Source of the DNA: Candidatus Brocadia sp. WS118
GTDB taxonomy: Bacteria > Planctomycetota > Brocadiia > Brocadiales > Brocadiaceae
Direction of reading: 5' to 3'
DNA: 38,282 nt
Assembly: GCA_007618135.1 (NCBI GenBank)
Contig: PHFX01000016.1
Coordinates: forward strand, 1-38,282
Under the pieces are notes generated by a model. That model saw only the letters and a program-made list of their open reading frames with translations. It searched no databases and had not been told where the DNA came from. How positions within the stretch are numbered: position 1 is the stretch's first letter; the number at the start of each line of letters is the position of its first letter. Position numbers and translations under genes: made by a program. Below are positions 6,341 through 37,994 of this stretch, one piece after another.

Positions 6341-7063
6341 TTATAATTCCTGAATAAGATTGTTTCTTTTTGATGCGATTTGCAGTAATCTCGTTTTAAC
6401 TTCTGCAAACGGAAAATTTTTACCAGGACATGCCGTACATTTTTGATGTACCTGCTTGTGTTGTAATATATTGGATGAATCAATACTATATTTTCTGGAA
6501 AGATATTGAATTAGCCTTACCAACGACTCAATCTGATTCTCAGTAGGAATATCTGCATTTTCGAAATCACCAACCAGACAAATCCCAATTGCTACACGGT
6601 TACAATCTATATTTGCTGTATGTGCGCCATGAATTTGCCTTTTCCATCGATTACCAACTTCTATCTCTCCATCGCCGGAAAAAGACCCATTACCGATTAC
6701 AAAATGATAGGCAAGCCCGTGCTCCCATTTTCTTTTTTCCCGGTGATAATGATCAAATCGTGCTGCATTTCCCTTCGCAGTGGCACTATGATGAATGACA
6801 ATATACTCCCAAGGTTTGTCATTTACGTCAGTACAACAGAGATGCTCAAGGTTTTGCGCATAAAATGGGTTTTCGGAATTTGCATGCCCGGTAGCCCATT
6901 TAACCTTCGCACCGGGGAAAAAAAGAAGAGAAATGCAGAGGCCTGATGCAATGATAATCATGGATAGCGAAAGACATTGAATTATTCCTTCGCAGGTATG
7001 TCTCGTTCTATTCCCAAAGCCTATTAAGTTCCGCGTCAGTATGGACAATATTTTTCTATACAT
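6341..7063 (-). CDS. N-acetylmuramoyl-L-alanine amidase (Amidase_2 / PGRP fold), membrane-anchored
   Basis: This enzyme would cleave the bond between MurNAc and L-alanine in peptidoglycan. In its 240 residues, a single membrane helix at about 31-50 is followed by the amidase domain (about 82-235). Likely zinc ligands are His91 or His92 in VIHHSAT, His192, and Cys202 in ACPGKNFP; this is the H...H...C pattern of T7-lysozyme-like amidases. The domain is probably periplasmic, tethered to the inner membrane. Upstream on the same strand are a consensus promoter (7269-7296), a GEMM riboswitch and a terminator-like hairpin, so expression is probably set by cyclic di-GMP. The ribosome-binding site is weak (AAGG about 10 nt before ATG). 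Confidence 0.88.
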   Translation of the reverse strand: MYRKILSILTRNLIGFGNRTRHTCEGIIQCLSLSMIIIASGLCISLLFFPGAKVKWATGHANSENPFYAQNLEHLCCTDVNDKPWEYIVIHHSATAKGNAARFDHYHREKRKWEHGLAYHFVIGNGSFSGDGEIEVGNRWKRQIHGAHTANIDCNRVAIGICLVGDFENADIPTENQIESLVRLIQYLSRKYSIDSSNILQHKQVHQKCTACPGKNFPFAEVKTRLLQIASKRNNLIQEL

Positions 7064-7096: not shown

Positions 7097-7149
7097 TAAA
7101 AATAACCTTCCTGTGAAAATATTCATACAGAACAAATTCGGCAGGAAGG
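7097..7149 (-). terminator. Hairpin plus U-tract between riboswitch and amidase (expression platform candidate)
   Basis: Read on the minus strand, CCTTCCTG (7142-7149) pairs with CAGGAAGG (7106-7113) across a 28-nt loop and is followed at once by a T-rich run (7095-7105). It lies between the GEMM aptamer and the amidase start, where a ligand-controlled terminator is expected. The loop is long for an intrinsic terminator, so strength is uncertain. Confidence 0.55.
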
Positions 7150-7164
7150 CTATCTTTAAATCCA

Positions 7165-7262
7165 TTGCCGTGGAGAGTTTTTATTTCAGGTGCATGCCAT
7201 CTTAGCGGATTAAAGACCCTTTCCTTTGCGTCCCCCGATCACTCGGGGTTTGCCTTTATCGT
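7165..7262 (-). ncRNA. Cyclic di-GMP-I (GEMM) riboswitch upstream of the amidase
   Basis: On the minus strand the leader contains the GEMM-I core. AAAGGCAAACC is followed by a perfect CCCCGA/UCGGGG stem closed by a GUGA (GNRA) tetraloop, then GACGCAAAGG. The second half has the usual GGGUCU ... AAGAUGGC pair. In Vc2 numbering the ligand-contacting position 20 (the base before CAAACC) is G, which predicts c-di-GMP and not cGAMP. Transcription from the promoter at 7269-7296 would begin at about 7262, right at the aptamer. The 3' edge and outer stem are not clear by eye, so the boundary near 7165 is approximate. Confidence 0.8.
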
Positions 7263-7268
7263 TGCTTT

Positions 7269-7296
7269 ATTATAAATTTTAATTCTGTATTGTCAA
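7269..7296 (-). promoter_or_regulatory. Consensus sigma-70 promoter of the riboswitch-amidase transcript
   Basis: On the minus strand there is a perfect -35 TTGACA (7291-7296), a 16-bp spacer, and a perfect -10 TATAAT (7269-7274). The predicted start near 7262 coincides with the 5' edge of the GEMM aptamer. Confidence 0.8.
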
Positions 7297-34670: not shown

Positions 34671-37600
34671 ATGATTGTTTCTCCTGAAATGCTTGGGCTG
34701 ATCGAACGATTCGACACCAATCGCGAGGCGTATCGTTCCGGGACATACAATGAAACCCAGCTCCGTCGTGAATTTATCGATCCATTCTTTAAAATTCTGG
34801 GCTGGGATGTTGACAATGAGAAGGGCTATGCCGAGGCGTATAAAGACGTCATCCACGAGGATTCCGTAAAGGTTGGCGGTATGACGAAGGCCCCGGACTA
34901 CTGCTTCCGCATCGGAGGCGTCCGCAAATTCTTCGTGGAAACAAAGAAGCCCTCCGTCAACCTTAAAGATGATGCCGACCCTGCATTTCAACTGCGCCGC
35001 TACGCATGGTCTGCCAAGCTCCCGCTCAGTATTCTCACCGACTTCGAGGAGTTCGTCGTTTACGATTGCAGGATAAAACCCGATAAGTCAGACAAGTCTT
35101 CCACAGCCCGTATCCTCTATCTCAACCACACCGAGTATGCACAGCGCTGGGATGAGATCGCCTCCATCTTCTCACGTGAAGCGGTACTCAAAGGCGCCTT
35201 TGATAAATACGCCGAATCGGGCAAGGGCAAAAAAGGCACCGCATCGGTTGATGATGCCTTTCTGCATGAGATCGAATCCTGGCGCGACACGCTTGCCCGC
35301 AACCTGGCGTTACGGAATCCTGATTTGACCCAGCACGACACGAACTTTGCCGTCCAGCGTATCATCGACCGTATTATCTTCCTGCGTATCTGTGAGGATC
35401 GCGGCATCGAAAAATACGGTCGCCTCATGGCCTTGCAGAACGGTGACCGCGTGTACGCACGCCTCTGCGAAATGTTCCATCGCGCTGATGAACGCTACAA
35501 CTCCGGCTTGTTTCACTTCCAAAAGGAAAAGGGCCGTGCTGAATCGCCAGACACCCTCACCCTAGGCTTGACCATTGACGACAGTGCGCTCAAGGATATC
35601 ATCAAAAACCTGTACTATCCCGACAGCCCCTATGAATTCTCCGTCCTTTCGGCTGACATCCTGGGTCAGGTCTACGAGCAATTCCTGGGCAAGATAATCC
35701 GCCTAACGGCTGGCCATCGTGCTGTGGTAGAGGACAAGCCTGAGGTCAAGAAGGCAGGCGGGGTTTACTACACACCGACGTATATTGTTGACTACATCGT
35801 AAAGAATACCGTTGGTCGCCTGGTTACCCCCCCTTATTCCCCCCGTAAACGTGGGGAAAATATTTCCCTCCCCGTTTACGGGGAGGGCCAGGGTGGGGTT
35901 GCTGCTCACCTTCCCGGGAAAACACGAGGGGGTGATAAACTCTTGTGCAACATTACCCCCAAACAGGTATCCAAACTGAGAATCCTCGACCCTGCCTGCG
36001 GCTCAGGCTCCTTTCTCCTGGGCGCCTATGAATACCTGCTTGACTGGCACCGCGACTGGTACGTGACCAATGGCCCTGAGAAATGGTCAACGGGACGCTC
36101 ACCGGCATTATACCAATCTGGAAAATCCGAAATCCGAAGTCCAAAATCCGAAACAGATAGTTGGCGACTAACCACCGCAGAACGTAAGCGCATCCTGCTC
36201 AACAACATCTACGGTGTGGACATCGACCCGCAGGCCGTGGAGGTAACTAAGCTGTCACTGCTTTTGAAGGTGCTGGAAGGCGAGTCAGAGCAGACGATTG
36301 TAAGACAGCTCAAACTCTTCCACGAACGCGCCCTGCCCGATCTTGGCAATAACATCAAGTGTGGCAACTCACTCATCGGCACGGATTTTTATAACACACC
36401 CTTAACCCCTCCCGTATCGGAGTACGGGACAAGCCTTTTTAGAGAGGAAAAGGCGGACTCCCCTCTAGCAAGAGGGGCCGGGGGTGTGTCAGACGAGGAA
36501 CGATACCGCATCAATCCATTCGACTGGGACAAAGAATTCCCGGAGACCATGCAAGCAGGCGGGTTTGACGTAGTGATCGGAAACCCGCCGTATGTAAGAC
36601 AAGAAGGCTTAGGCGACCTGAAAGAATATCTCCAACGTAAATACACGGTATATCATGGGATGGCAGACCTCTATGCGTATTTTATTGAGAAAGGTGTTTC
36701 GCTGCTCAGGGATAAAGGGCGTTTCGGCTACATCGTTGCAAACAAGTGGATGCGGGCGAATTATGGTGAGCCGCTCAGAAAGTGGTTAAAGCAACAAGGT
36801 ATTGCGCAAATTGTTGATTTTGGGGACCTGCCGGTATTCCAGCAAGCCACAACGTATCCCTGCATCCTCGTCATCGGAAAAGACACATCTCCATCTGCCA
36901 CTCCTGATGGTTCAGCCTTGCAGCCTGAACCAGGTATTTTGATTCAATCGAAGAGGACTGCACCATTAAGATCGGCAAAGAAGCCTATTACCACGCTTTT
37001 CGTGACTCAGGTAAAGACACTTGAATTTGAAAGCCTGGAAGTCTATGTAAAAGGAAACCGCCATGCTGTAAAACTTGCCACCCTTGATGACACGGGCTGG
37101 TCGCTTGCAGACGAACGAAGCGCTGCGCTGCTCAACAAGCTGAAAAAGGCCGGAATTCCTTTGAAAGAATATGTGAAGGGTAAAATCTATCGAGGTGTTT
37201 TAACAGGGCTCAATGAGGCATTTGTAATCGATGCAGAAACAAGGAATCGGCTCATTTCTGAAGACCCTAAAAGCAAAGAGATTATAAAGCCATTCCTGAT
37301 AGGGCGAGACGTTAAACGTTATCAGCCGCCAACGTGCAAGCAATTTTTGATTTTTACCAGACGTGGATTCGATATCCAAAAATATCCTGCCATAGAAAAG
37401 TATTTAAGCCAGTATAAAGAACTGCTTATGCCAAAACCGAAGGACTGGAAGGGTAGTAATTGGAAAGGAAGAAAACCTGGATCCTACAAATGGTATGAAA
37501 TTCAAGATGCAGTTGACTACTATGCTGAGTTTGAAAAACCAAAGATAATTATTCCAACTATTGTGCAAAACGCCTCATATACCTTAGATATTTCAGGTTT

Positions 37601-37994
37601 TTATTCGAATGACAAAACATCTATTATTGGTACAGAAGATTTATACTTGCTTGGAATATTGAATTCAAGAGTGGCCGACTTCGTCATGCATTCGATTTCC
37701 TCTACCAAACAGGGTGGTTATTTTGAATATAAACCCATGTATTTTTCACAAATTCCCATTCATACAATTGACTCATCCAACCCATCGGATAAATCGTGCC
37801 ACTATAGCATGGTTGCTCTTATCAGACAGATGCTCGAACTGCACAAGCAATTATTATCGGCAAAGACGGATCATGACAAGACCGTCATCCGGCGTCAAAT
37901 TGACGCCACCGACCGCCAGATTGACCGGTTGGTGTACGAATTGTACGGATTAACGGAGGAGGAAATTAAAATTGTTGAGGAAGGAACAACATGA
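34671..37994 (+). CDS. Type IIG restriction-modification enzyme (fused nuclease and N6-adenine methyltransferase)
   Basis: One polypeptide of 1107 residues would both cleave and methylate DNA. An N-terminal nuclease domain shows a PD...ExK core: Pro75-Asp76 and Glu90-x-Lys92 (FFVETKKPS). A helical linker precedes the methyltransferase: SAM-binding motif I DPACGSGSF at 440-448 and catalytic motif IV NPPY at 638-641 (gamma-type order, adenine N6). A C-terminal TaqI-like specificity domain covers about 800-1050. Four stretches look like in-frame repeat insertions (about 386-410, 484-495, 575-607, 746-754), all outside catalytic motifs. The frame is intact throughout. The start ATG 34671 has no clear ribosome-binding site. 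No separate restriction or methylase gene is visible beside it. Confidence 0.9.
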   Translation: MIVSPEMLGLIERFDTNREAYRSGTYNETQLRREFIDPFFKILGWDVDNEKGYAEAYKDVIHEDSVKVGGMTKAPDYCFRIGGVRKFFVETKKPSVNLKDDADPAFQLRRYAWSAKLPLSILTDFEEFVVYDCRIKPDKSDKSSTARILYLNHTEYAQRWDEIASIFSREAVLKGAFDKYAESGKGKKGTASVDDAFLHEIESWRDTLARNLALRNPDLTQHDTNFAVQRIIDRIIFLRICEDRGIEKYGRLMALQNGDRVYARLCEMFHRADERYNSGLFHFQKEKGRAESPDTLTLGLTIDDSALKDIIKNLYYPDSPYEFSVLSADILGQVYEQFLGKIIRLTAGHRAVVEDKPEVKKAGGVYYTPTYIVDYIVKNTVGRLVTPPYSPRKRGENISLPVYGEGQGGVAAHLPGKTRGGDKLLCNITPKQVSKLRILDPACGSGSFLLGAYEYLLDWHRDWYVTNGPEKWSTGRSPALYQSGKSEIRSPKSETDSWRLTTAERKRILLNNIYGVDIDPQAVEVTKLSLLLKVLEGESEQTIVRQLKLFHERALPDLGNNIKCGNSLIGTDFYNTPLTPPVSEYGTSLFREEKADSPLARGAGGVSDEERYRINPFDWDKEFPETMQAGGFDVVIGNPPYVRQEGLGDLKEYLQRKYTVYHGMADLYAYFIEKGVSLLRDKGRFGYIVANKWMRANYGEPLRKWLKQQGIAQIVDFGDLPVFQQATTYPCILVIGKDTSPSATPDGSALQPEPGILIQSKRTAPLRSAKKPITTLFVTQVKTLEFESLEVYVKGNRHAVKLATLDDTGWSLADERSAALLNKLKKAGIPLKEYVKGKIYRGVLTGLNEAFVIDAETRNRLISEDPKSKEIIKPFLIGRDVKRYQPPTCKQFLIFTRRGFDIQKYPAIEKYLSQYKELLMPKPKDWKGSNWKGRKPGSYKWYEIQDAVDYYAEFEKPKIIIPTIVQNASYTLDISGFYSNDKTSIIGTEDLYLLGILNSRVADFVMHSISSTKQGGYFEYKPMYFSQIPIHTIDSSNPSDKSCHYSMVALIRQMLELHKQLLSAKTDHDKTVIRRQIDATDRQIDRLVYELYGLTEEEIKIVEEGTT
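35826..35900. repeat. In-frame palindromic insertion A inside the type IIG gene
   Basis: A 75-nt C/G-rich palindrome (core GTAAACG ... CGTTTAC; outer CCCCTTATT ... CCAGGGTGGGG) encodes a PPYSPRKRGENISLPVYGEG-like stretch. The stretch lies between the NTVGRLV segment and the residues leading into motif I. Its length is a multiple of three. It belongs to a CCCTGGCCCTCCCC-type repeat distinct from insertion C. Confidence 0.75.
36121..36155. repeat. In-frame heptamer repeat (CGAAATC)5 inside the type IIG gene
   Basis: Five consecutive 7-nt units (GAAAATC, CGAAATC, CGAAGTC, CAAAATC, CGAAACA) encode GKSEIRSPKSET. They lie in the loop between the YQ of GRSPALYQ and the conserved WRLTTAERKRILLNNIYGVD block. 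Similar heptamer words occur outside the four-helix-bundle element (near 31670) and upstream of uvrA. Confidence 0.7.
36394..36489. repeat. In-frame palindromic insertion C inside the type IIG gene
   Basis: This 96-nt (32-codon) element has arms ACACACCCTTAACCCCTC (36394-36411) and GAGGGGCCGGGGGTGTGT (36472-36489), 16 of 18 complementary. The right arm is the exact inverse of the left arm of the intergenic element at 34538-34555. It adds a Pro/Gly/Ala-rich loop (TPLTPPVSEYG ... LARGAGGV) between the conserved GNSLIGTDFY and RINPFDWDKEFP segments. Confidence 0.85.
36907..36932. repeat. Short palindrome D inside the type IIG gene
   Basis: TGGTTCAG and CTGAACCA enclose CCTTGCAGC. It matches the hairpin just downstream of the gene (38006-38028, GGTTCA...TTGCAGC...TGAACC) at 19 of 23 positions. 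It encodes DGSALQPEPG within a Ser/Pro-rich segment (about 735-770) that looks like added sequence. Confidence 0.6.

Follow-up and report, generated by a model that had tools for sequence, protein, structure and literature searches.

GEMM riboswitches are found in many copies per genome in Geobacteraceae, where they stand before surface genes. For one variant class, c-di-GMP-I-GGC (RF03167), a different ligand was reportedly proposed by Weinberg et al. in 2017. Triplication of GEMM-regulated genes is on record (PMC2996986), and in the pilM riboswitch of Geobacter the ligand prevents formation of a terminator, which turns the gene ON (PMC9262584). In the stretch of 38,282 nucleotides from Candidatus Brocadia sp. 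WS118 analyzed here (the window), the sole Rfam element reported by cmscan lies at positions 7263-7136 on the minus strand and is matched best by RF03167 (63.8 bits, E 5.7e-13, gathering cut-off 59). The c-di-GMP-I (GEMM-I) model, RF01051, also scores above its cut-off (37.8 bits vs. 35), with a match at 7264-7186 on the same strand that ends at 7186 because of the long P3 loop. The GEMM-I core proposed in the initial annotation thus stands insofar as RF01051, the model suggested there for a check with Infernal, scored above its cut-off, but the best Rfam model is RF03167 and not RF01051. Judged by its sequence, the element is an ordinary class I c-di-GMP riboswitch of known type; what is unusual is not the type of switch but the extent of riboswitch copying in the genome, which harbors at least 38 of them.

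The covariance-model alignment and the predicted fold agree on a GNRA-capped stem, CCCCGA-GUGA-UCGGGG (7248-7233, minus strand), with the GUGA tetraloop of the first hairpin at 7242-7239 and GACGCAAAG directly after the stem, just as had been annotated; the GNRA loop is retained in nearly all genomic copies. An unconstrained P3 loop of about 54 nt (7211-7158, minus strand) appears as an insert in the RF03167 alignment, and nucleotides 7266-7132 on their own fold into an aptamer-like structure that contains both the GNRA stem and P3. The perfect promoter claimed upstream is indeed there: TTGACA-N16-TATAAT at 7296-7269 (minus strand) matches the consensus in 12 of 12 positions and occurs once in the window, vs. 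0.01 occurrences expected per window from shuffles. From the -10 box alone we infer a transcription start near 7262, which would leave P1 very short. The promoter hexamers align and are largely retained in the leaders of relatives, being shifted in L033.

The downstream gene (6341-7063, minus strand) encodes an intact Amidase_2 protein of 240 aa (N-acetylmuramoyl-L-alanine amidase; PF01510, E 8e-22, 78.4 bits vs. a cut-off of 26). Its nearest solved structures by sequence are the amidases 6SRT and 6SSC (E 1.2e-14 for PDB 6SRT), with which the motifs HHSA (91), HKQ (202) and CPG align, including the catalytic and zinc residues. A hydrophobic peak at residues 31-49 corresponds to an N-terminal anchor, and the earlier description of the product as a membrane-anchored amidase therefore holds. 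A weak Shine-Dalgarno-like AAGG (7077-7074, minus strand), recognized from sequence only, is retained in most relatives. Amidases 73-90% identical to this one are found in Candidatus Brocadia carolinensis, pituitae, sapporoensis and other Brocadia and anammox MAGs. The aptamer precedes the amidase gene in 8 of 8 Brocadia relatives, so that the proposed riboswitch unit with its own promoter and terminator is a conserved arrangement; in the aligned leaders the promoter, aptamer core and terminator are conserved, while the P3 loop differs in both sequence and size. The suggested link to the neighboring PilM/secretin operon is not supported: this operon is convergent and lies on the other strand, which rules out its control by the riboswitch. 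Elsewhere in the window, an ORF at 34671-37994 (plus strand), annotated by PADLOC as a type IIG restriction-modification protein, appears to hold in-frame stretches of dispersed repeats (35824-35860 and 36123-36153), with similar DNA in loci L069, L041 and L090.

The leader ends in an intrinsic terminator (7157-7098, minus strand), whose 5' arm (7157-7142) and 3' arm (7113-7098) form a 16-bp stem that runs into a U-tract. A hairpin with a U-tract had been annotated after the aptamer; the terminator is real, but instead of lying wholly downstream it reaches into the aptamer, its 5' arm being the aptamer's own P3 3' strand over all 16 bp, and only about 40 nt lie between the end of the aptamer and the end of the terminator. 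Because the P3 3' strand is common to both, the aptamer and terminator folds are mutually exclusive. The full leader folds to -52.3 kcal/mol with the terminator vs. -39.8 kcal/mol with the aptamer helices enforced, and its stability exceeds that of all 200 shuffles (z -3.9). The gap of about 12 kcal/mol in favor of the terminator without ligand predicts that the default state is OFF and that c-di-GMP turns the gene ON, the direction that we also infer by analogy with the Geobacter pilM arrangement. The window terminator leaves C92 itself unpaired, unlike most other copies. Sequence changes among the aligned leaders mostly preserve the terminator stem (UUCCUG/CAGGAA vs. UUACUG/CAGUAA), and the P3 5' strand does not follow these changes. 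Across 24 distinct arm pairs the terminator arms show modest covariation (93.2% paired vs. 91.0% in shuffles, 3 of 1000 shuffles being as good), because the arms hardly vary.

We consider it very probable that this unit is a transcriptional ON riboswitch for c-di-GMP before the amidase, with ligand, direction and physiological role as predicted here. The initial reading is thus essentially right, although it overlooked the ON direction, the strand common to aptamer and terminator, and the presence of at least 38 copies. In the proposed mechanism RNA polymerase would start at the aptamer edge from the strong housekeeping-type promoter. At low c-di-GMP, the downstream strand CAGGAAGGUUAUUUUU would capture the aptamer 3' strand AAAGAUAGCCUUCCUG, and this pairing would constitute the intrinsic terminator that stops the transcript before the amidase. 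If c-di-GMP is bound while the aptamer emerges, the 3' strand would be held within P3 and the junction, so that no terminator could form and the amidase would be transcribed. High c-di-GMP, as in a sessile or aggregated state, would then lead to more peptidoglycan amidase.

Searches of the WS118 genome returned at least 38 RF03167 and at least 37 RF01051 matches, mostly in the same places. The number of riboswitches per genome is at least 22-58 in Brocadia and at least 1-28 in the other genera of the family (all counts from genome searches, in which a limited number of candidates was scored, are lower bounds), and every searched genome has some. In a sample of 392 Planctomycetota genomes, surveyed by scoring up to ten candidates per genome, which makes the Brocadia counts in it lower bounds, genomes outside the order mostly contain 0-3 and at most 5. 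The WS118 assembly (5.0 Mb, 299 contigs) is larger than those of relatives and has an estimated contamination of 3.4%; some few of the copies may therefore come from a second strain. The common platform in this genome comprises a 5' arm AGCCUUACUGC provided by the aptamer, a 3' arm GCAGUAAGGCU and a U-tract. By inspection, about 34 of the 38 copies draw their terminator 5' arm from the aptamer 3' strand, and a pattern likewise gives 34; in shuffled controls such a stem of at least 9 bp occurs in 16 of 760. With adjoining genes defined as ORFs of at least 150 aa, 30 copies have a neighbor in sense, 2 in antisense and 6 neither. The genes downstream include those for subtilases, a caspase-like protease, OmpH, a pilin, cytochrome c', beta-helix, NHL and DUF11 proteins, a polysaccharide-synthesis protein and a sigma-54 regulator, and many switches of the family stand before secreted or surface genes.

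Class I aptamers of a further subtype (GCCAUGGGUC...GCCAGGUUGCC), without the shared-strand terminator, are represented in the WS118 genome by L008 and L005, the latter preceding a type IV pilin gene, and in other anammox genera by L104, L110, L113, L121 and L127. Downstream of several aptamers of this subtype lies a terminator with a 5' arm, AGACCCAAG, that complements the aptamer P3 5' strand, a design that would suggest OFF switches. In L016 and L026 the P3 3' strand occurs once more inside the P3 loop (AAAGAUAGCCUUACUGC), where it could serve as an internal decoy competing for the terminator strand. Tandem or closely spaced class I aptamers are present in B. pituitae (G004, 2195099-2195292) and in another anammox genome, G015 (C3:542961-543390).

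Comparison of the copies within the WS118 genome reveals that similarity generally starts a few bases from the aptamer edge and ends about 40 nt past it, at the U-tract. Even the free P3 loop shows 87-100% identity among several paralogs, whose flanks are unrelated. The P3 loops of L012/L015 are 100% identical, those of L016/L026 95%, L003/L028 92% and L039/L040 92%, and the flanks of these four pairs are no more alike than unrelated flanks. Four of the five loop types tested in this genome are found inside riboswitch units only; independent insertion of small repeats was therefore rejected as the cause of the shared loops. The fifth is a REP-like palindrome (GUAGGGGCGUAUUGC...GCCCCUAC), present in the P3 loop of L018, L023, L024, L025 and L030, with a related one outside riboswitch units at C3:24817; insertion may explain this type. 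At sites shared with B. pituitae the loop is retained in L017/L070 (95%) and L043/L073 (96%) and is of a different type in L023/L074 (49%) and in L028/L077 (48%; orthology of the latter pair is based on the upstream flank only). About half of the WS118 sites lack a clear counterpart among the B. pituitae riboswitch loci. At the L006 site the upstream gene is conserved, and a riboswitch stands after it in WS118 but in 0 of 10 other Brocadia genomes; at the L014 site the upstream gene is conserved and the riboswitch is absent in 7 of 8 other Brocadia genomes. No clean empty site was found at L006 or L014 in these other genomes, because the sequence downstream differs too. The L016 flank was unsuitable as an empty-site test: matches to it break off at a fixed point and are found many times over, as for a mobile element.

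As far as sequence comparison can tell, these patterns support a process confined to the switch unit, either copying or gene conversion. We put at about even the chances that in Brocadia the complete riboswitch, from P1 to the terminator U-tract, has been duplicated or gene-converted like a small dispersed repeat, bringing genes under c-di-GMP control. The window copy itself is an ordinary vertically inherited member outside this turnover: its loop is closer to that of the B. pituitae ortholog (80%) than to that of any paralog in its own genome (at most 64%).

The class of ligand was assessed from individual contact positions, numbered by the Vc2 and Geobacter cGAMP aptamer sequences; every contact residue checked agrees with them, with one constant offset for Vc2. 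By the ligand-contact residues listed in PMC7288161, the G at 7254 (minus strand) occupies the position of Vc2 G20, a guanine contact, in agreement with the initial annotation, the A at 7227 (minus strand) that of A47, and the C at 7141 (minus strand), aligned by eye with C75 of the cGAMP aptamer, that of C92, a Watson-Crick contact to the ligand. The residue at 7227 is a mismatch in the RF03167 alignment, since the consensus GACGCGAAG has G at position 47 where the window GACGCAAAG has A; we take this G, the middle letter of "GGC", to be the variant-defining A47G. RF03167 being the best Rfam model, one could suppose that the aptamer binds a ligand other than c-di-GMP, like the one proposed for the c-di-GMP-I-GGC variants, or else cGAMP. 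However, A47 is found in the window, in the listed copies of its genome and in the sampled anammox genera, A47G being absent, and the GGC ligand class was dropped on this position; the cGAMP (GEMM-Ib) class was dropped on position 20, where the window has G and not the A of cGAMP sensors. Moreover, short-loop copies in the same genome favor RF01051 (e.g. L001, 73.5 bits vs. 70.4 bits for RF03167), which makes the long P3 loop the probable cause of the window copy's preference for RF03167. Another ligand is thus very unlikely, and with G20, A47 and C92 canonical and A47G absent, c-di-GMP is the expected one.

That this c-di-GMP aptamer belongs to an OFF switch, or sits inert beside a constitutive terminator at the amidase, is highly improbable, even though at equilibrium the terminator greatly exceeds the aptamer fold in stability, and L005 and L008, devoid of the shared terminator, resemble the switches of other anammox genera, which use other platforms. 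With one strand common to aptamer and terminator, the ligand can only oppose termination, and the aptamer core is retained in 8 of 8 species while the P3 loop drifts. Among the 32 copies with a recognizable adjoining gene, 30 stand in sense before it; the core and the GNRA loop persist, as does the pairing of the terminator, and the amidase copy is in place in all 8 of 8 species. We therefore regard it as extremely improbable that a selfish dispersed repeat, similar to a riboswitch but devoid of any regulatory role, accounts for the copies, a reading favored by the high copy number, by similarity that stops at the unit edges between unrelated flanks, and by a few copies that have no sense gene or are decayed (L030, L045).

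Anammox bacteria remove nitrogen in treatment plants and in the oceans and work as aggregates, and in anammox granules higher c-di-GMP was correlated with more extracellular polymer (PMC11224092). The 22-58 RNA switches per Brocadia genome, one of them at a peptidoglycan amidase, offer a concrete list of candidate c-di-GMP-ON genes for cells that are hard to grow. On the producer side the WS118 genome has 20 GGDEF-domain matches, and its PilZ domains number 6 vs. at least 38 aptamers. If the complete riboswitch has indeed been copied, the regulon would have been built by the spread of an RNA switch, with RNA receptors (38) outnumbering PilZ domains (6), and spread as a cassette would be an uncommon route to building a bacterial regulon. 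The size of the family and its apparent unit-wise spread in Brocadia are of specialist interest. In a partial search of the literature we found no paper on riboswitches in anammox bacteria, which is weak evidence of novelty, and, for comparison with the GEMM copies of Geobacteraceae, no description of copying limited to the switch itself.

Compared with the known systems, the window copy is like the c-di-GMP-I riboswitches (RF01051) in its core, GNRA stem, G20/A47/C92 and predicted control of a surface or envelope gene, and differs in its P3 loop of about 54 nt, in the terminator built on the P3 3' strand and in belonging to a very large family within one genome. With c-di-GMP-I-GGC (RF03167), the best-scoring model, it has in common the AAAGGCAAACC core and the tolerance of long P3 loops, but it keeps A47 where that family has G. 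The multi-copy GEMM switches of Geobacteraceae, from an unrelated lineage, likewise include many copies of the same class per genome before surface genes. The pilM riboswitch of Geobacter metallireducens differs in sensing cGAMP and controlling pilus genes; it has in common with the window copy a terminator that uses an aptamer strand and is mutually exclusive with the aptamer, an arrangement for which ON switching has been shown in pilM (PMC9262584).
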